A stretch of DNA of 64,000 nt from Mesostigma viride (lineage: Eukaryota > Streptophyta > Mesostigmatophyceae > Mesostigmatales > Mesostigmataceae): assembly GCA_009746045.1 (NCBI GenBank), contig RPFO01000080.1, forward strand, positions 9,322,613 to 9,386,612. The letters are read 5' to 3'. The notes below the pieces were generated by a model. That model was not told the origin of the DNA. It worked only from the letters and a program-made list of their open reading frames with translations, and ran no database searches. Positions 3,395-60,781 of the stretch are shown here, piece by piece. A program made the translations under genes and the position numbers. The number at the start of each line of letters is the position of its first letter. Position 1 is the first letter of the stretch.

Positions 3395-6300
3395 TCATGC
3401 CCCTGGCCTCTGTATCTTCATGGCGGTAAGGAACAACGATTCCAGGCCTGCATCTCGGCACATGGTCGCCAGCTCGGACATGCCGTTCTCCAAGAGCTCG
3501 GTGATGGACCGCTGCGACTGGGTGCCTGACATGTATCGTGCGTGCACATGTATGTATGCATAGGATCCACGGATTGATCAATCATTCTATCGTGAACATG
3601 GACAAGCAGAGTAGGGCAGGGTAGGTTCAGAGTAGGGCAGGGCAGGTTCCTTACGTTTGTTAGAATCAGGCTAGTGATGGATTGCTGCGGTCGGGTGCAG
3701 GCGTGGTCTCATGCATATGCACACGCCACACACATGCATAATAAATCATTTCATAACACGGCCAAACAGTGTGTTGCATCCTACCACAGCAGTAGTAAGG
3801 TAGACTTATTGGCGTGTGACAATGCGCCACTGATAGCAGAGAAAACGGTCAAGTATTTGACTTCAGAGTTAGCTTGTGCCAATCCGATGGGACCGGCATG
3901 GTGCCCCCCCGCTCCGTGCCATAGAAGTATTCGTCACACACCGTATCGTTCACCTCTGTGATGACCAAGCGTAAGCAGATATTTGTATGAGTGTGCCGAA
4001 GGACCCAAAACCTGTGTTCTATGTTTGCTCAGGTCCGGTTGGCCCGGTGTCTTTACGTTCTGCCAACAGGCAAGCGGGAGCATGTGGCGCCGAGCGCGTG
4101 CGCCATCGCTACCGCGTGCTTGTCAAGGCATTTTGATGAGGAAGGTGGCCCTTCCTATGCGCTCATGGACCTGAGCTGGCGACGCATGACAATAGTTCTC
4201 AAATCTCAACCATTGTCCCCAGACAGTTGACATCCCAATATCAATTGTAATAAAGACGACATCCGTTATATCAAACAAACAATAATAAAGCTTACACCTC
4301 ACAATCCGATGGTCAGATATTTGTGCGAGTGTGCCGAACGACCCCCAAGTGTGTGTTCTATGTTTGTTCAGGGCCGGTTGGCCCGGTGTCTGTTCGAATT
4401 GTCAAGAGACTAGTGGGAGCGCGTGGCGCCGAACGCGTGCGTCGCTGCCACCGCGTGTTTGTCAAGGTATATTGATGGGGAAGGTGGCTGTTACGTCGCG
4501 TAACAATCTGTTACTGTTACGGACGTAAATTAGGTCCTTCGCCTCAGTCGTTCTTGGGTTTACGTTTAGTCTGTACTGTTGGACACTGTCGTCCCGGTAC
4601 CGTGGTGCAGTTGGCGCCGCGCCGCGTATTTTAGTAGTGGTCCTTATCCTTTATGTATAATGTGGTGGACCTGCGTGAATCTGTGCATCTGTAGGCGAGG
4701 GCCATGTCGGCCCGAGCATGCTGGACCGTTGGTGATCATTTATGCACGTCCTACCCCTCGTGTTGGCACTTGGCGTGTGTTAATGAATTGACACATATAG
4801 CTAGGGTCATGGCAGTGTAGTAGTGTTTCCTTCGTTATCCTGGAGTAAACGGGTTTTGGTTGAATGGCCTACGGCATATTATAGTTGTACTTTAATGCAT
4901 TGAGATCCAGCTCGTCACGTTCGTCTTTCGCACAGGGATTAAGTAGAGGTGGCCTCACTAACTTAGGTAGTATTCGACGGGGGTTAGGTAGAGGCGGAGG
5001 TAGAGAGCAGAGTCGCAACAGTGGCCCAACCTTCCCACACGTTCATGGACCTGCTGAGCCTGCGTCACATCATGTAGTTCTCTCACCCTTGTCCCGTCTA
5101 GTTGACCCGGAATCACGGAATATATTATTGAAATAAACACGTTTGCGCGAGCATTTCAAGTTGCAACCCGCTGTCCGACGGGAAGATCTTTCGTGATACC
5201 TTGATCAGGATCCGACCCGGATCTGGTAATAGATCGCGCACGTAACATCGACGTGGTCGTCATTAGACCGTCGCGGTCAGGGTGCACGTGGACCACTCCG
5301 TGGAAAATCCTGAGGTTGCTCGTTGGGGCTGGTTGCTCGGCGCTTTCGAACGGAGATATGATAACCAGGTGTGCAGTGCGCTAGAGAGTGTTATCCGGAC
5401 GCTACGACTCAAGTGGCGGCACTGCGAACGGCCGCAGATGGTGCGAACGGCCGAACGCCGAGACGGGCCGGCCAGGTGCGACGGTGGGAGTATCGACGGG
5501 CGTGCAGGGGGGCCGCCCGCGTTGGGGCCCTCTGGTTCCACAAATGGCGGAAGACTTGAGTCATCGTCGTGAGAAACAATGGCGCGGTACACCAGGTGTG
5601 TGTGCTCGTGTTGATGATGCCAATGGATCTCCTTGGGCGTGCACTCGGTCACAAATAAGTTTGACGGCCACGCGGTTCCGAGTGGTTAGATGTAATAATG
5701 CTTTTTTCTCCCGGGTATGCGTTACTGGTCAAGTGAGCACTTCAAACTCCCTCGGAGACAAGCCCACACGGGGGAAAGGGAGCCCCATACTGGAGCACCA
5801 TAGTTGGGTTGGATCGCGAGGAAAAAATAAAGTCAAGCACACTTGGGTCAATGACTTGAGACATTTAGGCCTCTGAGAATGAATCAAGCCAAAGGAAGCC
5901 AATAAACGAAAGACATCCCTGCTCGGGTCTACTACATGCCATAATGGCCTATCCACTAGGGCTGGGACATCCGCCGCATACCGAACACGAACATGTTCGG
6001 GCGAATACCCAACATGTTCGGTGTTCGGGTCGCCTGAAATGTTCGGCCGAACATGTGCTGTTCGGGTTCGGGTCACCCTCGGAACTTACAGAACATGTTC
6101 ATGTTCGTGTTCGGGTCACCCTGGGTCACCCTACGAACATATCCGCCTCTGACCCGGTACTGAACATTTACATACTTTTCGGTTGTTGTTATTGTTTTCA
6201 GCCGAATTTTCGAGTACCAAACCGCAGAACTTTCCAATTATCATTCGACAATTCAGTACCAACCAATGAACAGGATACTAAAATACGAAGCTTTCTTTCT

Positions 6301-9300
6301 ATCGGTTTCAGAAGTTCAGACGACAGCTAGCATGTTGCTTTCTTTTGTGACCGTTCAATTGTCCTCGTTGACTAAAAGGATGGTGTCCGTATCCTACTCA
6401 CAAGTGTATCTTCATGAATTGTTCGCATGCGGTAAATGTTCGGGTAATGTTCGGGTTCACGTTCGGGTCACCTTCAAAGCTTACAGCACAAGTTCGTGCT
6501 CGTGTTCGGGTCACCTGCCACCTGGGAATGTACCGAACATGTTCGTGTTCGGGTTCTGGTACTCTCGCCAGGTGTTCGTGTTCGTGACCGGGTCGCGAAA
6601 TGACCCGGATGTCCCAGTCCTACTATCCACCATGTCCCTAGGTAGTACGCTACTAGCTACTGGTAGTTTTCACCAAGAAAGGGGTGACTGCTGGCAGGCG
6701 TCACCGTTGTAAATACACTGACTAAGATGCCATAAATTGCAGGGACAAGTGCCCTACTTAAAATTGTCTAGTGACTTGTGACGGAGCAAGAGAAGGGTAC
6801 GGTTCAGGAGAAGGAATAACAAGGGTACGTGGGGCACGGCGAATAGGATTGGGGACAAGATGACCACGCCTATGCAGCCCTTCTGGGGCATGCAGGTTAT
6901 CTATGAGATATTCATATGTAGCATCCAACCAAGGAGTAGAAACCTGGAATATTCACACTGAGGGATACCTATGGTGATGTCACTTGTTGTTGCCCAGCTG
7001 AATATTATGCCTGCGAACGTAGGAGTGATGACAGCAAAGAAAGTATAGTTACTACCCGTACCACTAGGGGGCCAAACTGAGCTAAGATCACGGGGTACTC
7101 TTTCCTTGCTATGGGATGCCAAGCACATGCCAGGGGGGCATGTGCTGGGCCCCAGCATGGTGAACTGGCCTAACTTGACAATGACTTGTACAATGATTTT
7201 GAGGGTGTGGCTAGGCTCAACTGTTAAAGCTTGCACACAGTTATTGTAATAAACTTGTTTCTCTAGTAGGAAGGCACTCCAATGGACCTTAGCTTCAGCA
7301 CCTATCTTTTGAGCTATCTGCTCATTTTATACTTATGTTGCGGAGGGCTCTAAGGGGGCCGATCTGCCGCCTGTAGCGTAGCTCTACCGTACGTCACCTA
7401 CACCATGTAAGGTGCTTGTTGTTACATAGGACTAGAGAGAAGGGGACCGGCGTTGTGCCGGTACTAGCGCCTACTGGCAACCGTGCCCGCCCTTGATTGA
7501 GGGGGGCGTGGCGTCTTGAGACATGTGCTTTGTTTTTCATTTTCACATCCTACTTAGAGTGGTGTGGTGAACGTAGGGAGGCCTTTTTGCAGCTCCCACC
7601 CACCCACCGTCGCTGCTGTTGGGGACAAGATTGGACCAAGGGGGCATGTGCTGGGCCCCAGCATGGTGAACTGGCCTAACTCGACAATGACTTGTACAAA
7701 GATTTTGAGGGTGTGGCTAGGCTCAACTGTTAAAGCCTGCACACACTTATTGTAATAAACTTGTTTCTCTGGTAGGAAGGCACTCCAATGGACCTTAGCT
7801 TCAGCACCTATGTGAAACTGTGGCAGCATTTCCCCTGTAAAATTGGGGTATGCCGGCCAGAATGGAGCCGTAAACTGGGTCGTTGCCGTCTTGGGCTGGG
7901 CCCTTCACCACTTCCACGCCCTTCACCAAGGTAAGAAACAATGAAAAGAAATGCTACCCACCTCGGCGTCCTAGCTCAACGTAGCCGTCTCGTGTAAAAG
8001 AGGGTCAAAACCACGCATGCAAGGCCTAAACTATGCGAGCATAAGCCAAGCCGCGTTTCCTAAATAATCTAAAGCCATGAGACCTAACCAGGGACACAAG
8101 CATTCCATGCAATCATGCCAATTCACGAAACTTTTGTTCTAAAATGGCGGCTCGGGTCTGGCCGCTTCATTGGGTCAAAAGAAGGCACTAGATCACCAAC
8201 ATTTTCAATTCCAAATGCAGCCAGGTAGTAAGGGAAGGGTCTCCCCAACTTTTCTGAACTGTTTTCGAGAAGACAGGACGAGTAAAACCCAAATTGAGCG
8301 CCTAACTTCGGGCAGGGCCTGACAGACCATCAACCGCAATGACACGACCAAAATTTCACAATAATTTGCCAAGTCGCGTCCAAAAGCTGGCAGCGTATCT
8401 ATGAGGCAAAAGAATCTAAAAAGGTTTGTAGAAAGGTGCCTAAAAAGACTATAAAAAGGTTTGTAGAAAGGTTCAAAAAAAGATTTAAAAAAAGGTTCGA
8501 TTTCGGGTAAGTGCGTATCCCAAAAGGTTCGATTTACTGCATTAGCACCAGTAAGACCGAAGTTTGCAAGGCTTTTATCCACCTATTATACTGAGCATCT
8601 GGTGTGCTCTGGACAACTTTCCCGGCCTGCAGGGGCCTGCACCTTGCTGCCGGCCATCGCCGGCACTAGCGCCTAAAACGAGCACGTGAGTACGTACCTC
8701 GTAACCTCCGCAAGTCATCCACCGTTTGGCCATCTCTGCCACTTTCGGATGATTCGCCCCGTACCGCCATGGCCTTCCACCGAAGGCTGTGCAGCCTCTC
8801 AACGTACTCCGCCAGCGACACCGGCTCCCCCTGGCCGATGCCGAGGGACACATCAAGGAGACAACAATTCGGAACGAAAATAGCATAGCAGCACACATGA
8901 GGGGAAAGGTTGCATGACAGTCAGTGCTTGACTATTCGTTATTCGGTATCCGGTGGGGTTTTGAATGCCCTACCAAATAATTCGATAAATATCCGGTAAG
9001 TATTCAATATTATTCGGCACCCCTCGTTTAGTGCTTTTTAGTAGGGGCCTTGAGGGGTTCTACTATGTCCATTAGGATGCGGTATTGAATCCACATCATT
9101 TCCATGCCTTTGGCTACTTTATTTATGAGGCCAACCGCTTGGCACCCGCATCGAGTGATGGTAAGGTAATGGCCAGCCATACCTAGTATTTATGGCTTCA
9201 TGAACTCAAAGAGTGACAAGTAATCTCTGCACAATCATGTAAGGGTAGAAAATCACCCAGCAATATAAGGGTCACGCAGTGGCATTGATTCATTGGTTAA

Positions 9301-12300
9301 CTGGTCTCAAGCAACGAAGTAAGCACTTGCGCGTGCAGGTCCGAGGGCGGCAGCCTCCGTAGCACCACAGAGTACGTTACGGAATTAATAAAAGCATCGA
9401 AATCGAAATGCTATGTGTGCTATACAAATGCATTAGTCACCGTCCACGTTTGTCGCCGCCCGGCACATCACCATCGTTCCGCTAAATGGGCTCATCCAGC
9501 TCCCCTCTTGGAGCTGCTCGCTTGCATGCTCGTGGCGCATCCTCTGCCTCTTGTCCTCCCCCTAAAAAGTGCTTGCATGGCCAGCCTTGCCTCCTTGGGA
9601 ACCTTGTCGCACCCTCAGACGTTGGCCCATTTTCACCGGCGAAGTGGGTATGTGGACCTTCGATCACCGTGGGTATGGATGCCGTGAAATTTCAATCGCA
9701 GTAACTGCACTCAGTCATGGAGGTTCTTCTCCTTGGAATTCTTGCCCAGCCTTTTGACGAGTGTGAGTTAGTACGCCGAATTATAAGATAAATACGCCGT
9801 ATAATACGATGAATACGCCGTATTATACGATGAATATGCCGTATTATAAATGAATACGCCGTATTATACGATGAATATGCCGTATTATAAATGAATACGC
9901 CGTATTATACGATGAATGCGCCGTATTATAAATGAATACGCCGTATTATACGATGCAGGGGGGGGAGGGGGGGGGGGGTTGGCGTACTAACGTACTAGAA
10001 ATACGCCATATCGCTTTCTTAACGCAAATACGCCGTATAGTGCGTATTTTCACGTATTTTTTTCACGGAGCTCTGGAATTTGGCGCCCGACCTAATTTTG
10101 GCGCAGCTCACCTAGGCACGTACGCAGCCTAAACCGTACTCGGGGAGTACGAGCCTACGGTTGGTCCCGCTTGTCATCTCTGCCAGTTCACGGCGTTGGT
10201 AAACCATGGCAAACGATACCGACTTGCATAAAAATAATAATTGAGGTCCGCGGCCACGGAGGTGCAGAAGACTGACTGGGATGAGAGCATGGCTTGACAT
10301 TTTGAACTGCAATTTGCAGGAATGATCCATAGGTCTTAAAAAGCTTATATCCTTGGCCAGGCAACGTCTGGATGTGAGCAGATATGTCTCGACCTTCTGC
10401 TCGGTGCAGCAACCTCGTTTCAGTCGTTTGATCAGCGACCAGGACGGTCGCCGGGCATGTGCAAACTGTTGCTAGGGGGGCCATACATTTGTACGCGGAT
10501 AGATGTGTCAAATAATTGCTGACATGATTAGTTTGCGACGACGGCCAGGAAAGGCTCGCAGCTACGTCCATGAGGTGGGCATGCGGCTAGCTCCAGCAAG
10601 GAAGGTTTATACGTAATTAATCTGCGGTTTTGATCTGGTATGTGCTGTCCTGTTCACGTATTTATTGTATAATGTATCAAGTTTTTGGGTCGATTTTAAC
10701 ATAAATCGTATACCTAATGGTTGTCATAAGGAATAATTCAAGTAGCAATCTACATAGCATCCAGTGGCCGGATGAGTATCACACTTCATACAATGAGACA
10801 ACCAAGTGAGTGTCAAAGGCTACGTGCATTGTATTTACGCCACGTCAAGATTGAGGCATCAGTTAGCGCGTTTGAGAGGCACAACCATGGGATCAGCACC
10901 TTAGAATATGACGAGAGACTTGCCACCATGAATAGCGGCTCGAAAAAGCCCTTTTGGAGCTTTTGAGCTTTTGGCATATGATACGCGTATAACACGCAAT
11001 GCCATGCAGGACAAGACGCGGTGGAAGAAGATTGTCAAGGCGCACACGCCCGACCCTGTGGGCAAGCCACCTCCCCCCAAGCGGAGGAGGCGTTTTGATG
11101 AGTAGTGCAGTTAGGATTTTCTAGATAGAGTTAGGATAGTTCGATCACGCGGCTTCCTCCACCCCATCCATCATGAAATATGTGCTACATGACCTCCCCA
11201 CGGAGGCATGTTATAATTTAATTTAATTTAATAACACGCAATACGACAATACGCCGAGGTTTGGCGTATTGCCGTACTAGTCGTACTAACTCACGCTGCT
11301 TTTGACATACCGTGCACCGCCATGCCAGAAATCTGGAACAATCTGGACCATGGTAGCTAGAGCCTGCTTTTATCTTTAATCTGCACTTGTCGAGTCGTTC
11401 AGGAGGATGGAAATGAATGGAGATGGATTTGTGTAGCCGTGGAGATTAAAAATTATGGCTGGCTAACCTTCATCGAGACCTAGACGGTTTAGCTAAAAAT
11501 AACCTCGCGTGGTCAGGGCAAAAAACTTGTTCCTATATAGCGGCCATGAGTGTCCAGTTGTTAGCACCACTGCTGCGATCGCTCTCCCGCCATTTAACAC
11601 GAGGAATCACCCTCGATGGAGATACCTATTTATGTCCATAATTCTCACGTGTCCTCTGGTTCTTCTAGCAGGCGCCGGGCCGACCAGCCCTTAGCAACCC
11701 TGGTACACACGATTAGGGACCATTCGACAAAAGGGTCAGCACAATCGCCGTGGCAGGTGCGCAGTGCCGCTGCTACATCACAGGTAATATACTGCAACCC
11801 CCCCGCCCCCTCCCTTTGGTGGGAAGTACTCTCCCTATCATGGGTCTTATGGAAAGGAGGACTCAAAGGCCTATCACGTGATGGCTTTCGCCTTGTGGGC
11901 TTTATAAGCCGCAGAATCTTTTCCGCCGGGGTTGACAATGGCCTGCATGCACAGCTCGTTTGAATTTGTTGCCATGGCGGGGTTTCATGGCTAGAGCCAG
12001 CTCCATACGGCGGGGATCTTCCCAGTATTGACGGTACAGCTAGGGCATCCGTTAGCATGGCACGGAGCGCACCGCTGACTCTATTGGCTGTCTTCCTGCT
12101 ACAAAATCATTCCTGTGGCCTCCACCTTCGCACCCCCACGTTTGTCCTATCTACCGGGACCCTTACCTTTTTTAAAAAATTGGTCCAGTTCGGCATAGGG
12201 CCATCTGTCTAGTCACACTCACCCTGGAAGGCGCTACGGGCTTCCAACACATGACAGGTATACTGGCGTTGGACATCACATCGAACCTCCTGGGGAGGGC

Positions 12301-15300
12301 GTTCTGCCATGAGGTAGGCATCCTCCCAAACTCCCTCGGGCAGCAGTCCAAGAGATGCTCATAAATATCGGTGTTGCGTGACAATGTTGTGAAGACGGGC
12401 CCAATCAATAAACAATGGGAATCGGGCTGGAAGGGTCGAATCGCCATGACCAGCTCATGGCTCATGGCTGTCTGAGCATCCCTCAGGTTCAGGGACCGGT
12501 GAAACTCAGGTGAATATAGCAGCTGATACAGCTGTCGCCCTGTTAGAGCATAGCACGTCCAAACCGGAAATCTCTGATGCGCCGCCGCCGCCGGTCGAAC
12601 TTGTACACGAACCAGATGCGTCGCAGACGTGTGCCTCCTACTGCTCTGCATTCAGGGGTTACACATGTGCGTTGGTCAACTGGCACAACGGCTGGCACCG
12701 GGGCACGACGTAGTGGGGCGATCTGCGTGAGGATCTCCACCCGCGCGGGAGCTGGCGCGGCATTGCCGAATTGGTGAAGAAAATACACGCCCGATGACGA
12801 GTCTCCCGTAAACTCATCATCTACAGATGACGAGTCTCCCGTAAACTCATCATCTACAGATGACGAGTCTCCCGTAAACTCATCATCTACAGATGACGAG
12901 TCTCCCGTAAACTCATCATCTACAGATGACGAGTCTCCCGTAAACTCATCATCTACAGATGACGAGTCTCCCGTAAACTCATCATCTACAGATGACGAGT
13001 CTCCAGTAAACTCATCATCTACAGATGACGAGTCTCCAGTAAACTCATCATGTGGGTAGAGGTGTGGACAAACGGTTCACCTTGGATGATTGGGTCGTCG
13101 CATGCGCTTAAAAACCCGTCAACGAACCCAGATCACGAGGTGGATGCCTAAACCGTCAGGCTGAGCATACGGTCTAAGGCCCCAAGGCGGCGCAGGGCCA
13201 TCTCCAGATGGGAAGAGACGGGTCTTCAACCACCGGCGCTACCCGTGGGGGTGGGGGCCCGAAATAGTCCTCTCTTGGGGGCAGAGGTACCTACTGGTAT
13301 GTGCCCAAACGGACCTGGTGACCCTGCCTACGCAAGGGGCAGCATAGCGGGGCCCGCTGTGGCCGCCTGGGCCAGCACAGAGTTCTGCACTCCTGGAGCG
13401 GCCGCAGAGGAACCTCCCCCAATTCCTGAAGGAGCACTGGCATCAGGCTGGGCACATGCCCCAGGGGCTGATGACATAAACCCACCTCCCCTGGGTCGAC
13501 CCTGACGCAGGGCAACTGAACGGGGCACAAAACCGAGTGCCAGCGGCTGGCAAAGGCGAGGGCTGGGACATGTGCTACAGCCTCAACCCGCCGGACGGGG
13601 AGACCTCAAGGGCCTCGGGATGGGTCGTGACTCACCCTGGGAATGCTCGGGAGGGACACAAGTGGTTGAGAAGGTGGCGGGGCCAACCTGACCATGAATG
13701 TCAAGGAGACGATTGCTGCTACGCAAGGGATGGAGTGGTTGTGGGATTGTGTGCCGGATTGAGGGATTGTGTGCCGGACCATGCAAGGCGTATCGGGGCA
13801 AGCACGTCGTCCGACTCGAGGACTCCAGCGCGGTGGTGGTGGCGTCTGTCAGAGGGCGGTCATCCTCATACCGCCTCAACTGATGGTTCGATGCCCCTGC
13901 GCCCTGTCACTAGCTACTGACACGCACAGCCACTGGGTCTGGGTTGCTACTTCCCACAACCCTACTGACCACTGTCACCAGCCGGCGCAGCGCCTGGATT
14001 CCCGACTTGACCTGCAGGTGCAGTGACGTGCACCCCAACCAGGGGCATGGGGGGCCGCGGCGCCCGCGGGACTTTGTACTTTTGGAGGGAACTGCAAACC
14101 CCATACTACATGGCCAGCTTACCGGCGTGCGGTAGCTGCCTACGTGGCAAAGGCGCCACCTGATGCTGTCGACCCTGCTGACGCGGAAGCCATTTTCTAT
14201 AATTGGATTTCTGCTATCTACCATGCCCGGGATGGGCGTGGTCGTACCTTACGCCAGCACGCCAAGGCCTACTTGCACCTGTACTACCCCCGGACCTAGT
14301 TCGGAGCTGGGTACTGGCAAACCGCATGCTCGCGGGGTGGCAGCGGCTTGTTCCGGCTGTCAGCCCTCCCCCTATTATTCCCCAGAGCCTTTGCTATTTC
14401 ACTGCTAAGTTGCTTATTTCACGTCGACAGGTGCAAAATACAGGTGCATTTGAGTGCATTGACCAGTATTTACGCATTAGCGAGGCGCTAGCTAGTTGCG
14501 GGGTTGGGATGTAGAGTATGCTGGCCAACCCCCTCTCGAGCCAGGGCCCACCGTCGTTGCCCTTGCGCTGCGCAACCCCAAAACTGCGCAGGGGGCGGCC
14601 AAGCATGTCCTGGTCCGGGACCTGTGGCTCCTGCGTCGCTTCACGACTGGCCCGGCCCGGGATGCACTTCATTTTCGGGGATCGTACAGCCAGGCTAGGC
14701 AGCAATGGGAGGCAGTGCAGGCCCGCATGGCCCATGGGCATTCGTGGGATGTTTCTTTTCGCGCCCTCGGTGGGATGTTTCTTTTCGCGGCATGGGGGGG
14801 ACACGCATGATGCCATCACTGGCGAGTCACCGGAGGCCATCCAGCTGCGCGGCCGGTACATAAGCTTCAGCCTTCTCGGTCACGCGCTACTTTCCTCCAC
14901 CGCAGCCTGCTGGGGCGGGACATCCTGCCGGCGCTCTGGGCCCCCAGCGCTCGGCCCTGAGCTTTGAAGCTGCAGACTTCCGGCGCCATATCGGTGGCGT
15001 CATATTGTGACACCTTCCAGTCTGCTCTTATCTCTCGTCTTTTAGCTATTAAGTGACCTACCGTTGTGGGGGGGCTCAGGGGGGAGACGGCTTTACAAAC
15101 GCGAGGGTGAACCTGCGTTGGGACAAAGTACCCCAATAGCTAGCGTAGTTAACTTTTCTTTTTGGCATGTCACACGTATTCGGCTGTTAGCCATGTACGG
15201 AGATGTGGGTAGAGATAGGGCACAGCGGCTGTGTGCTGGCCCTGCAGATTCACATAGTGTGCTCACCCAAGCATACAGATGGCCGTGTGGTCATCTGGTA

Positions 15301-18300
15301 GATAAGACTGTCTGTGTTATTATTATTATCAATCCGCGGTATTATAGAGCCAGCACACATACTGACATAAATTTGATGTTTTGTGGTGATGCATGCAAAC
15401 CAAAGCAAGGCCAGAAATGGATCGCTGGGATTCGCCAAAGAAGACCCTTTATCTAAACCTTGGGAATCGGGTGGAGGAGCTTCTGTCAGCCAGGCGGCAG
15501 TTCAACACTGTGTACTACACAATTGTGGTCATCGCCTACCGTACAAGCGCACAGTAGAAACTGCAGGTTTGCAGGCACGCACGGCGTGGCGCGCCCTGGT
15601 GGAGCTGCGGCCAGTAGCTGAATGGTAGTGCCCAATGATCCGATTCGGTATTCGGAAATTAACGGCTTTGTTTGTAGTTCGACACGTAAAAGGTAGTAAT
15701 ATCGAATACATTGGGCACAGAATACGGGGACCCCTTGTAGAAATCAAACATATCCATACGGCAGACCTATTGGAACCGAACATTCCATTCGGAAGGCAAA
15801 CATGGTACTTGGCACAACCCTACTATCAACTCCGATCATGCAGCACACCCATCCTCCCGCCTACCTGCACTATCACCACCACCACCATCCGCCTACCTGC
15901 ACCAGCACCAGCACCACCCATCAAGGTCTCTCACCTCTCACTCTTCAGCACACCATCGACCACCACCCATGGAGGTCTACCATCATCTCTAACTCCACCA
16001 CCAGCACAAACTATTCTATCATGGATCATTTCCCCCGCCCCCCCCCGCCTGCCTCTGCCACCGGAGTACCACAAATACACTGCTCTCATCCTCCATCACC
16101 CCTCTGCCTGCCCGTTCTCTTGTCTTACCCACCGGCCCACCCTCCCCCCCGCCTACCCTCGCCCCCTCCCACCCTTGCCACCTCTCACCCTTGCCCCCCC
16201 CCACCCTTGCCCCGGCCCAACCTTGCCCCGGGCCACCCCTGCCCCAGCCCACCCTTGCCCCCCCCCACCCTTGCCACCTCTCACCCTTGCCCCCTCCCAC
16301 CCTTGCCCGGGCCCACCCTTGCCCCGGCCCACCCCTGCCCCAGCCCCCCCTTGCCCCCCCCCACCCTTGCCCCGGCCCAGCCTTGCACCGGCCCACCCTT
16401 GCCCCCGCCCACCCTTGCCCCCGCCCACCCCTGCCCCCGCCCCCCTCCCCCCCGCCTACCTCCACCACCAGCACGCCCGGGTAACCCGGCTTGCACACGC
16501 CCGTGACTGCCAGCTCATCGCCCCACGCCACGATCAGCTTGCGCTTGGTCAGGGACTTGATGTGGTGGAACCTGCCGCATGTCATCACGACCAGCACGCG
16601 GAGCCGAGCATGCATAGGAGGATGGGCGTTACATTGGCACAATATATAACACATTATGCTTGGCACAATAATAGAACACACTATACTTGGCACAGTATAT
16701 AACACATTTTGCATGCTTGGTCAGTGCCTCGATGTGGTAGAGCCGGGGGTGATGGGGCACATGCACGAAGGCCCACGCATATGCCGAGATGCCATGGGAA
16801 CAGATCGCAGTCTATTATTGGAACTACAAAAAAGACCTTTGTCAGCCTGACGCGAATGATTCTGGCAGAGAGCTCCCCCCCTTCCTTCCCTCTTCTCTTC
16901 AGCATCTCCATCCGGCTCCCACGCAACAGCAGTCGGGCATGCTGCTGGCTGCAAAACAACAGCCATTCCAACATTCTGCAGGCTGTCCCTACTCACAAAA
17001 GCCACAATAAAGCACACAGGGAGTAATTTTCCAAACCCTTAGTCTTGCAGGACCAAGGTACGACCAGTCACCAGTGCGCCCATTGGAATCGCCTCCCACC
17101 CATTCACCCTCACCCACACAACTCGATCCGTGGCCGACTGGATACTACAGTAGGACTAGTTCATACACCGGCATATACACTGGAATATACACTGGTATAT
17201 ACATTGGAATATACACTAGTATATACACTAGTATATACAGTAGCTTATACACAGTACATATTATACACAGTATATATTATACACAGTATATACCAGGCTA
17301 TCACTTAGATTCGATCCACTGGTTCATATTGGAGAATTTCGGACACGCATGCACCGCTCTCCGGTAAAGAGCCTTTTCGCAGTTGGGCTATCGCTTGGGA
17401 TGCCATCGGATCAGGAGACCCCTAGCCCCGAAATCATGCAAGAGGTCCTCTGTTCGAATCCGGAATGGTACCAAAACAATTTCACACGAGCATGTGCAGT
17501 ACTATTTCACACAGGGCACCAGCGCTGGCATGTGCAGTCTCATATACATTCGCAGGCCGCACACACGTGCATTTCGCCACAGGAGAGCTACCACACAGGA
17601 GAGCGACCACACGTGCGAGGTACCACACAGGACTCACCAGATGAGCCGGCGCTCGATTGCAGGCACCGTGGTGACGGCCGGCGGCGGCCCCCCGCGTGCA
17701 GGGTCCCTGGTCTGCTCCCCATCTCCCGCGTTGCGCGCTGACGACAACGCGAGGGCCGCTTCCTGACAAGCCAAGTATAGGGATGATAAAAGCCAAGTAT
17801 AGGGATGATAAGGGCACGTGGCAGTGGTGTCTACAGATAGGCATCACAGGGAGTCAAATGCTTGCGCAGTGGCATCTCCAGTATCCCAGTGACAATGTAT
17901 AGTGTCCCAACCACAATCTGTAGTTTCCCAGCGACAATGTATAGTGTCCCAACGACAATGTATAGTATCCCAGCGACAATGTATAGTGTCCCAACCACAA
18001 TCTATAGTATCCCAGCGACAATGTATAGTGTCCCAACGACAATGTATAGTATCCCAGCGACAATGTATAGTGTCCCAACGACAATGTATAGTATCCCAGC
18101 GACAATGTATAGTGTCCCAACGACAATGTATAGTATCCCAGCGGCAATGTATAGTGTCCCAACGACAAATTATAGTGTCAACGTGAGTGGCACTACATAG
18201 TGTGCCACACAACCTCACGGACGACAACCTGCCCCGCGTCACTCGCAATCCTTCATGGCCGTTGGGGATGGTTCAACGCAGAGTGCGTTGTCGCGCTCAC

Positions 18301-20836
18301 AACTACCTTAGATCCCCCACCCTGTGCGCCCCCACATCCCAGTTATCAAGTCAGAGGAACGTGAATGAGTACAGGGACAGGGCGAGGGACAAGACAGTTC
18401 TAGCACGAATACTGCTGTCTACCACGCTGATAGCAACTATCCGCATGCTCTTCATTATGCATGTACGGACAGACGCTACCCAATGGGGTTGTCCTGCGTG
18501 CACAATATGCTAACGATTTATTTCCTCGCACCTGCACGGCTGCAGCCAACACTCCAACACTCAATGTTCAGCATTCCACGTGACTACAGGCCATGTTACG
18601 GGAGTCACATACATGTGACATTACCATGATTACGAGTTAGTAACTAGAAACTCTCAAACAATCAACCCTGCATGCACCTGCACTGCCACATCCAGCACTC
18701 CACGTTATAATGTGCACCGCGTTACTCTAACTGGGGTCACGTGTTCCGTTCACTGTTGCCCTCACACCCACCTGCACGGATGCGACCAAGTCCAACACGC
18801 ACTCCATGCCCAGCGCACGCGCGACCGCGCCCTCGGCTGCGCCCTGCAGCTGCTCCTGCTCCCCACGGGTGGCCCCTGCCAGCACCAGCCGCACCAGGGG
18901 CGACACGTACCGGGGGGCGCTGCTGTGCGCACAGCCAGCCGCACTAAGCCCTGCTAAGGTGTCGCTTTGCCCAGTTCTAGCAGCACTCACGACCTGGGCC
19001 TCGTCCTTCTGCCGCAGCCCACTACTCGGCGTTGTGGGGGCCACCCCTCGCTCCAAGGGGTCCGATGCCATACGTCTACCCGCTGCCTCGTGGCCAGACA
19101 GCTCCAGCCCGTTCCCCAGTTGGGCCGCTAGCCGAGATGCCACACCGCCTTTGGATCCGGCCTTAGAACCGCCGTCCAAGCCCTCTCCACAACCAGCATG
19201 ACCCCTGGAGCATCCTCGGGCAGCACAACGCCCACCCATTGTCTTGTTGCACGTGTCAGGACCGGATCCGTCGTGAGGATCGGCACGCAACCGCTGGCAT
19301 TCGTCACAGCCACCCGACGGTACGGCCACCTCCTCCGCGCAACCCGCGTTGCCACCTGTCATACCAGGGTACCCCCTGGGGAGGGTGACGTGGACGCCCA
19401 CGTCAAATGCGAGCTCGCCGGGCTGTTGGGGGAGCACGTTCACTGTAAAGGATAGTAGCGGCTGGTCACACAATAACTCTAGCAGACCATTTGAATTGCC
19501 CATACTATCCTTGCTACTGCGGTTCTTATTATCATTGCTGCTGTTGTCTAGAGGTCTGCTATTTATGTTGTAGTCATTGCTGATGTCATCTCGAGAGGAC
19601 AGGGGGCCCATAGCGATGAGCTGGCGCGCGGCCGCCAGTGCGTCCACCTCATCCTCGGTGAACACCAGCTCGCGCTCGCCGGCATAAACGCATTGGAGGG
19701 CATCCACCTGGGTGGGTGTGGGAATGAAAAAAAAAATACAAATAATAATACAAATAATAATACAAATGGGAAAACAAAACAGTCAATGAATCATTATTAT
19801 AGACTGACAAAAAACTTCAAGGATCGGGGGCATAGAAAAATGAACATAGGATCAGCAAGAATAACTGTAAAAGACGGGCAAGCCTAGAGGCACGGGCGAG
19901 CAAGGAGGGAAGGGGTTGTGGGACTCTAGGGTTGTAGGGTTTAGGGCTGTAGGGTTGAAAGTCGTGGGTTTATGGTTTAAGGGTTTAGGACGGCAGTGAG
20001 ACTGGTTGGTGGGAGCCGGTGGGGAGGCAGGGATGCTCTCAAGGATTATGTAGAGATCATCATAGCATGATGCGAGCAGTGTATGAGGGTGTTTCTGAGA
20101 CTAGCAAAAAATCTCAAGCACGAAATCAGGCACAACACATAATAGCTGCCAGGCTCGTCATGGAAGGTTTGCCAGGAGTCGACCCTGCACAGATTTTGCC
20201 AAAACTCCCCACAACAACGCTTTTACCGGGGTGGTGAGTGTAGCATGATAGTGATTCTACCAGGATGGCAAATTAAGAAAAGATGGTGAGATAGAGAAAA
20301 AAGGAGACCGAGGATGGGCCCTTGTTTTCTACCTCATGCTGTACTTATCCTCCCACACAACGGTTATAAGCGATGCTAGGCCCCTAACAAGTCACAGCGT
20401 TGTTAGTCATGGAGCTCACTAAATAGACGCGTCCTTTCCATGTGAAAACAACTGCGCGGCGGACGCTGCTCCTGTATATGGCTACCCAGGTGAAAAAGAC
20501 TCGCTAACTCCGTGGAAGAAGTGGAACCGCAATGAAGCGTAGAAATCAGGAAAAGATTCCCCGAGTGACCGCGATATAGAGGACTCTGGGATTGCTCTTG
20601 CACAACTACCACATATGTATGTCCATAGTTTGCCGTGTCATATGTGTAATACGGAGATACATAAGCAGGATCCTGATGTACACGACAGGAGACGTACGTA
20701 CCGAAATGGACTGGCGTTGAATACATAACGATGACGCAAACCGTACCTCAGCCACCTGCCTCTCCAAAGATTCCAGCAGCGCAGAAGCGGTCAGGCCAAA
20801 ACCAGACTTTGCCCCGTTGGGTCCATATCGGGACAT
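3395..20836 (-). CDS. RWDD2: RWDD2-like protein (RWD domain + DUF1115)
   Basis: Six minus-strand exons join in phase: 20836-20747, 19707-18772, 17762-17638, 16571-16460, 8830-8698, 3525-3395 (508 aa). Exon 1 gives the family-typical N-terminus (ALLESLERQVAE) running straight into VDALQCVYAGERELVF. The RWD fold is read from LLSFTVNVLPQQP and VTLPRGYPG to ECVLDLVASVQ. DUF1115 follows: RRLIW joins FHHIKSLTKRKLIVAW across exons 3/4 through a split Trp codon, then GVCKPGYPGVLVVE, EYVERLHSLRWKAMAVRG, and MSELATMCRDAGLESLF at the end. The order and motifs match animal RWDD2 proteins, which have no settled biochemical role; RWD domains usually mediate protein contacts. Oddities: about 170 low-complexity residues are inserted inside the RWD domain in exon 2, and introns 4 and 5 (7.6 and 5.2 kb) are full of mobile elements. 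The acceptor of exon 3 is the least certain junction. Confidence 0.85.
3966..4260 (+). repeat. Unidentified 300-bp intronic repeat, copy A
   Basis: It lies in RWDD2-like intron 5. It is about 75-80% similar by eye to 4313-4488 plus 5021-5140, beginning at the motif cagatatttgt and ending near aataaagacg. The end carries TGTAATAAA, which resembles a polyadenylation signal, so it may be part of a transcribed element. No family was recognised. Confidence 0.55.
4313..5140 (+). repeat. Unidentified intronic repeat, copy B, split by a solo LTR
   Basis: The two halves, 4313-4488 and 5021-5140, match copy A as one continuous stretch. They are separated by 532 bp absent from copy A and flanked by a duplicated GTGGC. 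Copy A therefore shows the empty-site state. The 3' half ends with AATAAA near 5133-5138, parallel to copy A. Confidence 0.55.
4489..5020. mobile_element. Solo LTR (532 bp) with 5-bp TSD
   Basis: The insert begins TGTTAC and ends CAACA, the TG...CA ends expected of an LTR, and is flanked on both sides by GTGGC (4484-4488 and 5021-5025). The related repeat at 3966-4260 lacks it at the matching position, which supports an insertion. No internal retrotransposon sequence or second LTR is present, so it is best read as a solo LTR left after recombination. Which strand it reads on is not established. Confidence 0.65.
5957..6622. mobile_element. hAT-like non-autonomous element, perfect 8-bp TSD
   Basis: The 666-bp element has terminal inverted repeats of about 17 bp with one mismatch (TAGGGCTGGGACATCCG left; TAGGACTGGGACATCCG as the reverse complement of the right end). 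It is flanked by an identical 8-bp duplication CTATCCAC at 5949-5956 and 6623-6630. The first bases fit the hAT terminal pattern YARNGNTG, and 8-bp TSDs are typical of hAT. Subterminal regions carry many GAACATGTTCG/GTTCGGGT motifs. No transposase ORF is inside, so it would need an autonomous partner. It lies in RWDD2-like intron 5. Confidence 0.85.
7134..7305. repeat. 172-bp direct repeat, copy 1
   Basis: About 95% identical by eye to 7640-7811. On the minus strand both copies keep the same open frame (KVHWSAFL, EKQVYYN, VQALTVEPSHTLKI), which may mean it derives from a coding piece of an unidentified element. It lies in RWDD2-like intron 5. Confidence 0.65.
7640..7811. repeat. 172-bp direct repeat, copy 2
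   Basis: Partner of 7134-7305, same orientation, 506 bp further on. Edges are sharp (GGGGGCATGTG at the left, AGCACCTAT at the right). The spacer has no recognised coding content. The pair could be the ends of a small composite or miniature element, but no target-site duplication was found. Confidence 0.65.
9780..9953. repeat. Tandem repeat of the ATACGCCGTATTATA unit
   Basis: Seven to eight degenerate units of about 20-24 bp based on aatacgccgtattatacgatg form the subterminal array of the enclosing TIR element. A G-rich run (9957-9978) follows directly. The unit is itself near-palindromic. Confidence 0.8.
11001..11230 (+). mobile_element. 5'-truncated LINE insertion (family 3), 12-bp TSD
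   Basis: The insert is flanked by identical 12-bp copies of ATAACACGCAAT (10989-11000 and 11231-11242). It encodes the last about 32 residues of a protein (DKTRWKKIVKAHTPDP, then a proline/arginine-rich end and a stop at 11103-11105), which resembles the C-terminus of LINE ORF2 proteins. A 3' UTR and an ATTTA-type tail (11215-11230) follow. This is the signature of target-primed reverse transcription with strong 5' truncation. Confidence 0.75.
11320..11505 (-). repeat. Dispersed repeat, inverted copy of 23080-23290
   Basis: The reverse complement shares blocks such as AGCTAAACCGTCTAGGTCTCG and CCAGATTTCTGGC with 23080-23290 in cyclophilin intron 3, in the same order. A shorter piece (GATTTCTGGCCTGCGCTG) recurs at about 25458-25475. 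It is an unclassified non-coding repeat family. Confidence 0.55.
12172..13078 (-). other. Unidentified open frames, possible transposon ORF remnant
   Basis: Two overlapping minus-strand frames are open: about 13078-12543 (no ATG; begins in the 33-bp repeat and ends in an arginine-rich segment, FVYKFDRRRRRIRDFRFGR) and 12651-12172 (contains GRQLYQLLYSPEFHRSLNL and MSHELVMAIRPFQPDSHCLL). The second looks protein-like rather than random, but I recognise no family. They lie in RWDD2-like intron 4 next to a decayed tyrosine recombinase, so they may belong to the same lost element. A random open frame is also possible. Confidence 0.3.
12793..13050. repeat. 33-bp minisatellite, about 8 copies
   Basis: The unit is gatgacgagtctcccgtaaa followed by ctcatcatctaca, almost perfectly conserved. 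Only the last two units carry a C-to-A change (tccagtaaac). A 33-base unit is 11 codons; on the minus strand it reads VDDEFTGDSSS, in frame with the downstream open frame, and on the plus strand DDESPVNSSST. Confidence 0.9.
14080..14960 (+). pseudogene. Decayed tyrosine recombinase (DIRS/Crypton-like)
   Basis: Plus-strand fragments in shifting frames follow the order of a phage-integrase-type tyrosine recombinase. There is an N-terminal helical part (AIFYNWISAIYHARDGRGRT, 14177-14236), a catalytic-domain start with LVRSWVLANRMLAGWQRL and later IDQYLRISEALA, a strand with LRNPKTAQ, and a C-terminal block RHGGDTHDAITGE then IQLRGRYIS, which parallels the R-x-GG-AT...GRW region of DIRS and Crypton recombinases. 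At least three frameshifts and early stops make it dead. It lies antisense in RWDD2-like intron 4. No reverse transcriptase was found beside it, so the choice between a DIRS-type retroelement and a Crypton is open. Confidence 0.45.
16140..16456. repeat. C-rich minisatellite abutting RWDD2-like exon 4 donor
   Basis: Degenerate units of about 12 bp (cccacccttgcc) run to within three bases of the GT donor of exon 4 (donor at 16459-16458). The plus strand has almost no G or A, so all three plus frames and two minus frames stay open; these open frames are artefacts. Confidence 0.8.
16629..16766 (-). repeat. Three 30-bp units plus a copy of the exon 4 acceptor edge
   Basis: Upstream (in transcript terms) of exon 4 there are three TTGGCACA..ATAACACA units (16633-16711), then a diverged copy of the first about 30 bases of exon 4 (16720-16748). 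The copy reads CTCTACCACATCGAGGCACT where the exon reads TTCCACCACATCAAGTCCCT. The copy has lost its AG acceptor, so it is probably not spliced. Confidence 0.6.
17884..18172. repeat. 21-bp minisatellite in RWDD2-like intron 2
   Basis: About 14 units alternate between gtatcccagcgacaatgtat and gtgtcccaacgacaatgtat types. Because the unit is 21 bases without stops, several reading frames stay open for about 100 codons on both strands; none is considered real. Confidence 0.9.
19925..19989 (+). repeat. Degenerate interstitial telomere-like TTTAGGG tract
   Basis: Short run of TAGGGTT, TTTAGGG, GTAGGGTT, TTTAAGGGTTTAGG and similar units in RWDD2-like intron 1. TTTAGGG is the telomere unit of plants and many algae. 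Units are too degenerate to be an active telomere. Confidence 0.5.
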
Positions 20837-21601
20837 TTTAGCCCAACAAACAGCTTTATAATTAGTATATCAAGGGTACCAATTTTCACGCAATTTCGTC
20901 GGCCTAGCAACAGCAGTGGCATACAACATGAATTACTGGACTGTCTTACAAGCGCATAATTTTCAGGTAGAGGTAATGTGCCTTATAAACTGGCAGCTTA
21001 TTGTTTCCCGGGGCTTCAAGTGGACACTAATGAAGGCCAATATGCGCAGTTCAAGGTCGCAACTTGTTCTATTGACTAAACGTATGAAGAACTAACTAAA
21101 AGCTAGCCAATAATGCGAAATAATTAGATAATCAAATTTGTCGTTAAACATTGCAGCACCAGCAAGCCTCACAATGTCGGCTCTGTGCTGACGCGACAAC
21201 GCAATGGCTAATGAGAACAATGGCAAATGTAATTGATAATCAAATTAATAATGTAACCACTAGTCCACAACAAAAAATTGGCCATGTACAGTAGCAAAGC
21301 GAGTGTCACCACTCAACGCCAAACGTCGCGAAGTCCGGCTTCTATCCAGTTACACGAGGTTACACGTGTACAATACCTACGTCCGCGACGTAAGGAGTGT
21401 CGTTTCTGCTGGCGTTTGCCACCTTCCGTGGCGGTCAGGGTCCCTAAAAAGGCGGGCCACTGCCAACGCGTGACGCACTCGAGGTCGACTGTCATCTTCT
21501 CTCTCCCTTGCGCCATCGCCTCTTCTTGTTGTTGAACCCTAAACAAACGACCGGAAACAGAAAGACAACGAACATTGAGCAGCGTGCAGCGGTAACAGAA
21601 A
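20837..21601. promoter_or_regulatory. Divergent promoter region, RWDD2-like and cyclophilin
   Basis: The 765 bp separate two start codons pointing away from each other, so the region must hold both promoters and 5' UTRs. No open frame fits a gene. AT-rich stretches lie at about 20850-20880 and 21060-21260. No specific TATA box or operator can be claimed. Confidence 0.5.
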
Positions 21602-25222
<3,621 letters not shown>

Positions 25223-26635: not shown

Positions 26636-55221
<28,586 letters not shown>

Positions 55222-57179: not shown

Positions 57180-60100
57180 ATGTCACCACCGAGCGGCGCC
57201 GCTCCGGAGCTAGCCGATGTCAAGGCACTAATCGCGGAGCACCGTGGTGCGATCGACGGCATTAAGGCCGCCGAGGGGGTCTCCCTGACCCCTGAGTGGG
57301 ACGACTACTGGCTGCTGCGATTCGCGCTCTCCTTTCCTGACCACGACAAAGCGGTGGAGGCGGTCAAGAGGGCGGTTGAGTACCGAGAGGAGAAGAAGGA
57401 GCTGCTCGCGATGGCTGCTGCCGGCCGCCCCCCGCCAAAACACGAGCTGATCCGCAAGTACTGCGTGGCGGACGTGCACAAGTGCACCGACAGGGGGGAG
57501 CCGTTGTACCTGATCCGTGCGGGCCTGTCGAACGTCAAGGCGCTCCTGCACGTGGTCTCCGAGGATGAGGTCATGGATTGGATGATGTACAAGGTGGGCT
57601 ATAAATAGCGGTGCGGCTGTACATCACTTGTTGTCTGCTTGTGGGTGTTTACTACCGGCGGGGCCTGTTCTAATAGAGGATGAGGTCGTGGACAAGAAGC
57701 TGGGCAGGTGTCTACAAATAACTTATTTTTTGTTGTTGGACGCTTGTGGGACCGTACTCTCAATCTACCCTTTCTGAATGCCCCATCATCGCCATTTATT
57801 TGTTGTTGGACGCTTGTGGGACCATATTCTCGATCTACCCTTGCTGAATGCCCCATCGTCGCCATTTGTTTCTTGTTGGACGCGTGTGGGACCATATTCT
57901 TGATCTACCCTTGCTGAACGCGACATCGTCGACATTTGTATGTTGCTGGACGCGTGTGGGACCATATTCTCAATCTACCCATTCTGAATGCGACATCGTT
58001 GCCATTTCCTTGGGCAGAAGGAGATCCTCTTCCGCATGTGCGGCGCCTGGTCACTCTGTCCCTCACCATATTCTCTGTCTATACACTCTTGCTGAATGCC
58101 CTGTCGTGATGTGTTCCATGGCAGAAGGAGATCCTGTTCCGCATGTGCGACGCCAAGACGCGCGAGAGCGGCCACTTCGTGCGCATGATCAGCGTGAACG
58201 ACTTCCGCAAGCTGTCCATCCTGCACGGGGGCTTCAACAAGAAGTTCTCCAAGATACTCGGCCGCGTGTCCCACCTGTCAGGTAGGGTTATCGTGCATGC
58301 GTGGAGCAGCCAAGGTAGACCATGCGTGTCGGGGGCATTTCCTGCATTGCCAAGCCCTGTATAATCAAGGTATCTGGTGTGTAGACTGTAGGGGGGGGAA
58401 GGGGGTGCGGTATTATTAATGCTTAGTAGAAGCATGAGTGGTTGTGAGAAGGCTGGTTGGGGTGGTCGTGGTTGGGGATGTGGGGAGAGGGTAAGTGCCT
58501 AGAAGTGTAGGTAGGGAATGGGAGGAGTCTCATCCCTGCCTGTTAGTGTTGAAATGCAGTCACCTGGTGGTTGCGTTCCGGTCGGCAAAAGAAGGGGAAG
58601 TTATGGATGCTGTCAGACGGCGCATGCCTAGACGTGTACAGTGGCAGTTGGGTACAGCGACCAGTTGGGTACAGCGACCAGTTGGGTACAGTGACCAGTT
58701 GGGTACAGCGACCAGTTGGGTACAGTGGCAGTTGGGTACAGTGACCAGTTGGGTACAGTGGCAGTTGGGGACAGTGACCAGTTGGGTACAGTGGCAGTTG
58801 GGTACAGCGACCAGTTGGGTACAGTGGCAGTTGGGTACAGTGACCAGTTGGGTACAGTGGCAGTTGGGTACAGTGACCAGTTGGGTACAGCGACCAGTTG
58901 GGTACAGTGGCAGTTGGGTACAGTGACCAGTTGGGTACAGCGCTAGTTGGGTACAGTGACCAGTTGGCTACAGTGACCAGTTGGGTGCAGTGGCAGTTGG
59001 CTACAGCGACCAGTTGGGTACAGCGACCAGTTGGGTACAGTGGCAGTTGGGTACAGTGACCAGTTGGGTACAGTGGCAGTTGGGTACAGTGACCAGTTGG
59101 GTACAGTGGCAGTTGGGTACAGCGACCAGTTGGGTACAGTGGCAGTTGGGTACAGTGACCAGTTGGGTACAGTGGCAGTTGGGTACAGTGACCAGTTGGG
59201 TACAGCGACCACTTGGGTACAGTGGCAGTTGGGTACAGTGACCAGTTGGGTACAGCGCTAGTTGGGTACAGTGACCAGTTGGCTACAGTGACCAGTTGGG
59301 TGCAGTGGCAGTTGGCTACAGCGACCAGTTGGGTACAGTGGCAGTTGGGGACAGTGACCAGTTGGGTACAGTGGCAGTTGGGGACAGTGACCAGTTGGAT
59401 GCAGCGTTAGTTGGGTACAGTGACCAGTTGGGTACAGTGACCAGTTGGGTACAGTGGCAGTAGGGTACAGCGACCAGTTGGATGCAGTGGCATTTGGCTA
59501 CAGCGACAAGTTGGATGCAGTGGCAGTCGGGTAGATTGATAGAATCGTACTATTGATGGGGCAGAGGTGGTACGTTTTTGCTTGCCGCGGTGCCTGCAGG
59601 CTGCTGTATGCTTCAATCAGGGACACTTGTGTCCGTACGCAGACAGGGTGTGCATGAGCTCTATTGCTGCCACCAACGTCACCTCCTCAGGGCACTGGAG
59701 TGACACGTTACTACATGCTAGGGCTAGGAGTGACACGTTACTACATGGTAGGACTTGGGACAGCAACCCCTTCAGCATGCAGGGTCCACCCTCGCGATGC
59801 CTAGTGGTCTGTCCTATCATTCAACATAGTGGTCTGCACCTGCTTGTCCTGTCCCCCGTCTCAGTCTGTCCTTGCTCCTTGTGTTTTTCCTTGCTCCCCC
59901 CCCCCCCGGCAGAGACGGTGTACCCCCAGCTGTCAGAGAAGAATGTGATGATCAACACACCGCGCATCTTCTCTTACATATTCAGGTGGGTGGGGGCAGC
60001 GCGTGCGGTGGGTGGTGGGGCAAGGGCGTGATGATCAACGTGCCCCGCATCTTCTCGTACTGTATATTCGGCGGATGGTCCGTGGCGTGTGCGAGCAGCA

Positions 60101-60781
60101 TTTACGGAATTGGGTATTTGTGCGGTCTTCTGAATGGTAATGGAAATTCTAAAAGCGGACGCCTCTTCAGCCCATGACAACGTGGGACAGTGACTAGCCC
60201 CTACCCTCTGACTATCACGCTACCCTCTGACTATCACCCTACCCTCTGACTATCACCCTACCCTCTGACGATCACCCTACCCTCTGACTATCACCCTACC
60301 CTCTGACGATCACCCTACCCTCTGACGATCACCCTACCCTCTGACGATCACCCTACCCTCTGACGATCACCCTACCCTCTGACTATACCCTCCTCGCTGA
60401 CAACCCTGTGACTATCTCCCTATATGTATCTGCAGCGTGGCCAAGCGACTGATGAGCGCCAAGACGCTCGCCAAGACTGCTGTGTGCCCTGGCTTTGCAA
60501 AGGGGGCGGACGCGACCGCGTGCCCCTTTTTGGCGGGCCGCATGTCCATGGCCTCCCTGCCCACCTTCCTGGGGGGCACCTGCACGTGCGGCGCGTCCAA
60601 CGCGTGCATCGGCGGCCACCCCAATGACCAGGCGGCACCAGACAAGGAGGGAGACGCGACCGAGGTGGCCAACGGGGAGGACAACTTTGACGACATGACA
60701 GCGGAACAGCTGGCGGCGCTGGACCTGGGGGCTGAGGATGACGAGGATGGCAAGGGCACACCACGGAGCAAGCCGACATGA
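57180..60781 (+). CDS. SEC14-like CRAL-TRIO domain protein
   Basis: Four exons join in phase: 57180-57593, 58125-58281, 59913-59985, 60436-60781 (329 aa). Exon 1 holds the CRAL-TRIO N-terminal helices (DDYWLLRFALSFPDHDKAVE, AVEYREEKKE). The lipid-binding core follows: VSEDEVMDWMMYK joined to KEILFRMCDAKTRES, FVRMISVNDFRKLSILHGGF, YPQLSEKNVMINTPRIFSYI and SLPTFLGGTCTC, the last two being the familiar YPE..IINAP and LP..LGG signatures. The C-terminus is acidic (EDNFDDMTAEQLAALDL). Such proteins move or present phosphoinositides, phosphatidylcholine or other hydrophobic ligands at membranes; the ligand here is not predictable. There is no signal peptide, so it is probably cytosolic. All three introns contain copies of their own exon edges, and introns 2 and 3 are mostly minisatellite. 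Confidence 0.92.
57711..58047 (+). repeat. 69-bp tandem array ending in a copy of SEC14-like exon 2 start
   Basis: Four units (TTGTTGGACGC...ACCATATTCT...GCCATTT) run through intron 1; in the last the unit passes into gggcagaaggagatcctctt, which is the exon 2 acceptor and first 30 coding bases (58018-58047). The true exon 2 begins at 58125 after one more degenerate unit. A copy of the exon 1 donor edge lies at 57675-57708. Confidence 0.75.
58638..59520. repeat. 16/17-bp minisatellite, about 53 units (SEC14-like intron 2)
   Basis: Two unit types, cagttgggtacagtgac (17) and cagttgggtacagtgg (16), alternate so that pairs make 33 bases. This gives spurious open frames (QLGTVTSWVQW repeats) on both strands. 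Confidence 0.95.
60021..60071 (+). repeat. Copy of SEC14-like exon 3
   Basis: Reads GTGATGATCAACGTGCCCCG then CATCTTCTCGTAC, against GTGATGATCAACACACCGCG then CATCTTCTCTTAC in exon 3. It lies 36 bases past the true donor. An inserted TGT and a GC..GG where the donor GT should be make it unlikely to splice. Confidence 0.8.
60196..60392. repeat. 19-bp tandem repeat (SEC14-like intron 3)
   Basis: About ten units of taccctctgactatcaccc (or gacgatcaccc), ending about 45 bases before the exon 4 acceptor (60435). Confidence 0.9.

Follow-up and report, generated by a model that had tools for sequence, protein, structure and literature searches.

Worn copies of exon edges in introns of Mesostigma viride and their probable origin in local tandem duplication

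A good share of the introns of Mesostigma viride carry worn copies of the edges of the neighbouring exons, and these copies are real. They were noticed in a stretch of nuclear DNA of 64,000 nucleotides (nt) on contig C1106 (positions 9322613-9386612; hereafter the window), in a xanthine dehydrogenase (XDH) gene, a SEC14-like gene, a cyclophilin gene and an RWD/Prp3_C-like gene. A reading made without database searches (the sequence-only reading) had proposed that nearly every intron of these genes repeats a stretch of its own exon edge, that the copies share orientation, lie nearby and differ in age, and that recurrent tandem duplication anchored at exon-intron junctions lengthens the introns or supplies spare splice sites. 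Orientation, local position and difference in age were supported, also in other genes, while "nearly every intron" was an overstatement, with either edge copied in 23 of 78 introns and 13 of 32 donor edges copied in the window at a score of at least 14. The copies are probably the product of a general local tandem duplication that lengthens introns: units spanning a junction leave edge copies, and those crossing a donor would be tolerated, the upstream donor presumably still being used, and would remain recognisable by comparison with the copy preserved in the exon.

Frequency of exon-edge copies

The sample comprised 78 introns, including 32 in the four genes of the window and 46 elsewhere, the latter from an SNF2-type gene on contig C1468 (n=16) and from other cyclophilin genes (n=30). 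The 16 introns of the SNF2-type gene were solved with 0 mismatches, intron 13 (unsolved, 30 mismatches) having been dropped, and the 30 outside cyclophilin introns were placed by profile alignment and are less exact than the protein-solved ones. Of the cyclophilin introns, two in C1978 and one in C557 were doubtful and were left out before counting; in the outside cyclophilin set two loci carried no intron, 5 of the 35 cyclophilin matches had no locus, and the window's own locus (L028) was excluded.

Matches to the 40-nt edge of each exon were sought in the nearest 600 nt of the intron that it borders, with introns of other sequences as the reference, about 1 edge in 20 being expected at p <= 0.05. 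At this level donor edges were copied in 9/21 introns of XDH, 7/11 of the other window genes, 1/16 of the SNF2-type gene and 6/30 of the other cyclophilins, and acceptor edges in 4/21, 4/11, 2/16 and 2/30, respectively. With a score of at least 14, the donor edge was copied in 19 and the acceptor edge in 7 of the 78 introns; the window contributed 13/32 donors and 5/32 acceptors and the outside genes 6/46 and 2/46, the window being richer, as is to be expected of one picked for this pattern. A blastn comparison of the unmasked introns returned donor copies in 12 and acceptor copies in 6 of the 78.

Exon interiors behaved differently from exon edges, as only 2 of 670 tests reached a score of 14. 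When the 40-mers were moved 20 nt inward, copies were found in 3/74 cases on the donor side and 1/74 on the acceptor side, and at 40 to 100 nt inward in 0/131 on each side. The reverse complement of the edges showed no excess in the XDH introns. Edge copies exceed copies of exon interiors and are present in other genes of the genome, and on both of these points the pattern withstood the tests proposed with it, but the SNF2-type gene supplied one clear case among its 32 edges.

Structure of the copies and young arrays across donors

All 26 edge copies are in the same orientation as their source, at offsets of 28 to 467 nt, with 25 of 26 at 240 nt or less (searched within 600 nt). In the blastn alignments the identity of copies is mostly 64 to 84%. 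The aligned stretches span the junction into intron sequence, for instance in XDH introns 6, 14 and 17, and the intron flanks of the copy pairs are alike when taken together (Stouffer z 10.4); judged singly against segments of the same intron, 12 of 26 reach p < 0.05. Since XDH intron 14 holds three copies and intron 17 two, some copies are remnants of longer arrays. Offsets divisible by three occur in 5 of the 26 edge copies, which is too few to judge and is blurred by later indels; a bias away from multiples of three was considered and dropped as weak.

Young arrays that cross donors show the same duplication process in a fresher state. One lies in another cyclophilin gene of C1106 (L012/L014, minus strand), which we take to be PPIL1-like from a reading of its protein. 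At the donor of its intron 2 (9992149) stands an array of 29-bp units that starts within the exon, 21 nt before the junction; each unit joins the final 21 bases of the exon to the first 8 of the intron, giving 15 identical donors TGG|GTAGGT. The frame stays open only from the first donor, and each of the other 14 runs into a stop, which makes this gene a natural experiment on how the spliceosome chooses among equal donors. Units of 28 bp and 85 bp also cross the donors of intron 9 in the SNF2-type gene and of intron 2 in a gene on C1513, respectively. In intron 3 of the C1978 cyclophilin, an 80-bp array extends to about +1770, and all six further units that were inspected carry the donor CAG|GTTGGT; the first unit of the array begins 13 nt inside the exon, where only 10 of 14 exon bases are alike.

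Proposed mechanism and the excess of donor copies

Frequent local tandem duplication would add intron length, leaving edge copies mostly 28 to 240 nt apart, and some of its products would become minisatellites. A unit that happened to span an exon-intron junction would place the exon edge and its splice site inside the intron. If the unit spanned a donor, the old upstream donor would still yield the correct mRNA, so that such a duplication should be close to neutral and could be fixed nearly freely. If the unit spanned an acceptor, the correct mRNA would require the downstream copy to beat the one met first, which is presumably harder, so that fewer acceptor copies should survive. The exon copy would then be held by selection while the intron copy decayed alone, and because the exon keeps a reference copy, old events would remain legible at exon edges after equally old intron-intron copies had faded. 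The counts of donor and acceptor copies (19 versus 7 of 78) differ in this direction (binomial p 0.03, Fisher p 0.017).

Use of the first donor among equals is not self-evident, because splicing of human DOK7 favours the intron-proximal donor over its competitor, and choices of this kind are altered by SR and hnRNP proteins (PMC5585400). A wider proposal, that introns throughout the Mesostigma genome are still growing by donor-crossing arrays, in which a spliceosome strictly obeying a "first donor wins" rule, with the most upstream of many identical donors used, would make donor duplications nearly free and acceptor duplications costly and rarer, is offered only tentatively.

The edge copies provide a readable fossil record of intron growth, by which events older than the ordinary recognisable repeats of introns become countable, and the mechanism predicts that donor copies outnumber acceptor copies in any repeat-rich genome. 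The report on the published M. viride assembly gives a size of 441.8 Mb and a mean intron of 1142 bp, and assigns 30.1% of the intron space to repetitive elements, which it ties to the long introns (PMC6947507); worn junction-spanning duplications may add to this published figure.

Alternative explanations

The strongest competitor is a process anchored at the junctions, in which R-loops, stalled replication or spliceosome-linked breaks would start duplications there. Such anchoring looked likely from the excess at edges: among window edges outside the arrays found by Tandem Repeats Finder (TRF), 9/27 donors and 5/28 acceptors were copied, which is 8 and 4 times the rate of TRF-masked intron-interior 40-mers (about 4%; 1.6 to 4.8% by gene set). 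The copied exon parts are also short and clustered at the junction, as anchoring would have it. Simulation and the scarcity of arrays at junctions weakened this reading. At a simulated divergence of 0.25 to 0.3 per lineage, which the observed copy identities fit, 66 to 80% of edge copies were found and 9 to 25% of intron-intron copies (3 to 7 times), because the exon copy hardly changes while both intron-intron copies decay; this one-sided decay can account for a large part of the surplus of old copies. Of the 63 recognisable arrays in the 78 introns (those with a period of at least 15), 3 crossed a donor and 0 an acceptor, whereas 6.4 would be expected at either kind of junction if arrays were placed at random (P 0.09 for donors, 0.0008 for acceptors and 2e-5 for both combined). 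With crossings thus fewer than chance would give, junction anchoring is not supported, and outside the window only 6 of 46 donors were copied. We therefore consider anchoring unlikely; of the mechanism first proposed, recurrent local duplication that adds intron sequence stands and its anchoring at junctions does not.

Several observations nevertheless weigh against unanchored local tandem duplication, among them the size of the edge excess. A constant rate over time would give an edge/interior ratio of 2 to 3 only, as estimated from the simulation curves, which is below the observed 8 and 4, and therefore older events dominate or there is some true edge excess; a moderate true excess of duplications at edges is possible. 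Of the interior arrays, 12 have their start within 100 nt of a donor and 13 their end within 100 nt of an acceptor, against 7.0 expected each, which favours anchoring. The depletion of arrays at donors is not significant when taken alone, and TRF did not include the C1978 array among those that cross a junction. The copied exon part, which was never found beyond 40 nt, is shorter than uniform break points would yield, and the intron side is not significant singly in 14 of the 26 copies. The difference between donors and acceptors is modest, also by blastn (12 versus 6 introns). The SNF2-type gene, whose introns are short (median 476 nt), is poor in copies, and copy-bearing introns are longer only as a trend (median 1009 versus 700, p = 0.14).

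A second alternative is that selection retains the copies for a role in splicing, in reserve or in regulation, as spare donors or decoys. The PPIL1-like array with its 15 identical donors could be read in this way, and so could the GT dinucleotide, which is kept in 12 of the 17 donor copies that reach the junction. However, about 11 would be expected from 80% identity alone (the square of about 0.8), so that retention is as decay predicts. Mismatches at codon positions 1, 2 and 3 amount to.163,.127 and.208 (15 copies, with RWD-like intron 3 left out), a near-even spread, as would be expected if nothing restrains the decay of the intron copy and most changes in the exon are silent. The intact donors of the PPIL1-like array need no selection because the array is young, and all 14 downstream ones would read into a stop. 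The copies show no sign of coding constraint or upkeep, and the spare-site role put forward in the sequence-only reading is very unlikely.

Intron birth by tandem duplication of an exon piece bearing AGGT, a known model of intron gain, is still less probable. It likewise involves tandem duplication of exon sequence with splice sites (PMC2891723; PMC4974935). The model sets a copy of the upstream exon end beside the acceptor, but the final 64 nt of the intron contained the donor edge in 0 of 78 cases, and the two intron ends were alike in 1 of 78 at p <= 0.05 and in 0 of 78 at a score of at least 14; most copies are 28 to 240 nt away from the edge that they repeat. The model was rejected on these grounds.

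Chance similarity or assembly error has almost no probability, for although some listed copies are weak (exons 5, 9 and 11 of XDH) and repeat arrays can be misassembled, the copies exceed the levels in other introns, exon interiors and reverse complements, misassembly is not expected to give diverged copies, and the reading frames are intact with 0 mismatches.

Comparison with known systems

Minisatellites within introns consist of units arrayed head to tail. The Mesostigma arrays share this arrangement, but some of their units include an exon edge and a working donor. Introners, whose copies are shared between genes, resemble the present pattern in being a recurrent process that shapes introns; in contrast, each Mesostigma copy resembles its own adjoining exon, and exon edges match their own intron better than introns of other sequences. 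A study describing Introners as transposable elements that make introns does not contain the word Mesostigma in its main text (PMC9860276).

In the potato RdRp gene, a new intron arose through a tandem duplication across the border between intron 1 and exon 2 (PMC4974935). That event also spans an exon-intron boundary and brings splice signals along; it is a single case that yielded a new intron, whereas in Mesostigma there are many events, mostly at donors, which lengthen existing introns and would leave the mRNA unchanged. In Drosophila, intron gain has been modelled as tandem duplication of proto-splice sites (PMC2891723). There, too, the copied splice signals come from tandem duplication, although the introns arise inside exons and have similar ends, unlike in Mesostigma, where the copy sits close to one edge of an intron that was already present and the ends are alike in the single intron mentioned above. 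Among the top-ranked matches in the open PubMed Central literature, no description of exon-edge copies across the introns of one genome was found. The Mesostigma pattern is a known kind of event with another outcome, namely intron lengthening with an apparently unchanged mRNA, repeated over many introns of one genome.

Genes and edge copies of the window

The XDH gene (55221 to 26639, minus strand) has 22 exons and 21 introns and was modelled by tblastn and an exact splice solution against the M. viride record P0001 (jgi/Mesvir1), to which the draft query showed 99% identity over 47% of its length. All 21 introns were solved as GT-AG, with 0 amino-acid mismatches to P0001 at every junction. 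The intervals proposed as copies of its donor edges were aligned to their own donor region, with p taken against 2000 random intron segments of other genes; 14 of the 15 held at p <= 0.0015, and that of exon 9 (45801-45828) failed (p = 0.23). As these intervals had been chosen in the sequence-only reading and some copies are weak (score 14 for exons 5 and 19, scores 13 and 11 for the two of exon 11), the best-in-region comparison with the adjoining 600 nt was added.

The highest-scoring XDH copy, all of them being on the minus strand, belongs to exon 6 (49931..49970; score 30, p 0.0005), where the junction recurs 106 nt downstream of the real donor with GTGAGG kept (-39..+9 to +67..+115, 82%). 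Exon 14 has three copies: the first (35001..35050, offset 128) scores 29 with 79% identity over 52 nt, the second (34845..34870, offset 313) scores 16 and extends from -57..+34 to +256..+344 with 67% over 95 nt, and the third (34612..34668, offset 506) scores 23 with 72% over 53 nt. The two copies of exon 17 lie at 32556..32600 (offset about 93, GTGGGC kept, score 19; -26..+100 to +67..+207, 62% over 141 nt) and at 32455..32500 (offset 200, score 23; 84% over 32 nt). Exon 8 is copied at 46471..46514 (-50..-13, offset 188, score 23), and exon 16 at 33297..33322 (score 21; -63..+12 to +65..+149). The copy of the exon 15 donor region (33962..33993, -6..+12, score 18) is mostly intron side, and the 40-nt exon edge alone is not significant there. 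GT is lost in the copies of exon 18 (30893..30940; score 19, by its junction letters) and exon 19 (29850..29880; -17..+19 to +98..+134). The remaining copies are the weak ones of exon 5 (50612..50640, -15..+11) and exon 11 (42438-42466 and 42341-42366, together 42341..42466). Acceptor copies reported for exons 4 and 12 were recovered in introns 3 and 11 (E 0.007 and 6e-6); the unmasked blastn run returned that of intron 3 and not that of intron 11.

The SEC14-like (CRAL/TRIO) gene (57180..60778, plus strand; P0128, 0 mismatches; PF00650) has four coding exons and three introns (57594-58124, 58282-59912 and 59986-60435). Copies had been claimed for exons 1 to 3; donor copies were found in introns 1 and 3 and an acceptor copy in intron 1, and intron 2 yielded none. 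The acceptor edge of exon 2 is copied 107 nt upstream (58018..58047, plus strand) with AG kept and 28 of 30 exon bases identical. The donor edge of exon 3 is copied at 60028..60093 (plus strand; score 23; -40..+22 to +43..+108, 75% over 67 nt), with GT lost.

The exons of the cyclophilin domain (21849..25183, plus strand) were placed by spliced profile alignment and are separated by four introns (22008-22823, 22900-23570, 23634-24332 and 24396-25043). Copies were found here at the donors of introns 2, 3 and 4, including those of intron 3 at 23696..23726 (plus strand, offset 91, 81% over 31 nt) and of intron 4 at 24530..24555 (plus strand, offset 154, 88% over 26 nt), the latter with GTGAGT kept.

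The RWD/Prp3_C-like gene, called RWDD2-like in the earlier reading (3398..19611, minus strand; P0129, 0 mismatches; PF06544), has four introns (18771-17763, 17637-16572, 16459-8831 and 8697-3526). Introns 1 and 3 hold donor copies and introns 2 and 4 acceptor copies (score >= 14). The acceptor edge of exon 3 is copied 172 nt upstream (16715..16744, minus strand, 83% over 30 nt), with AG lost. A G-rich array of low complexity, held with lower confidence, begins about 71 nt within exon 3 and continues into intron 3 (16097..16531, minus strand; -71..+185 to +96..+363, 71%, exon part 48/70; tandem array 16132-16460).

Protein searches with joined pieces returned the SNF2-type, SEC14-like and RWD-like proteins; the same searches returned no protein for a transporter-cyclase-like gene or a repeat-protein-like gene, though their pieces were in the queries. 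The share of sequence in tandem repeats is 18.6% for the window and 8.2% for a stretch of 200 kb on C1468 (L032-L051), of which 5 kb is N. Within XDH intron 12 lies a 2-kb (CAGG)n array of about 500 copies with 99% matches (window 37566-39576). Pieces of reverse transcriptase, probably from a non-LTR (long terminal repeat) retroelement, occur in the window at 62235-62879 (minus strand; PF00078) and, by eye only, at about 1319-2570. On C1468, at about 4047572-4053572 (minus strand; L036/L037), an ammonium-transporter-like frame is closely followed by nucleotide-cyclase-like exons, and judged by eye the two are possibly one fused gene.

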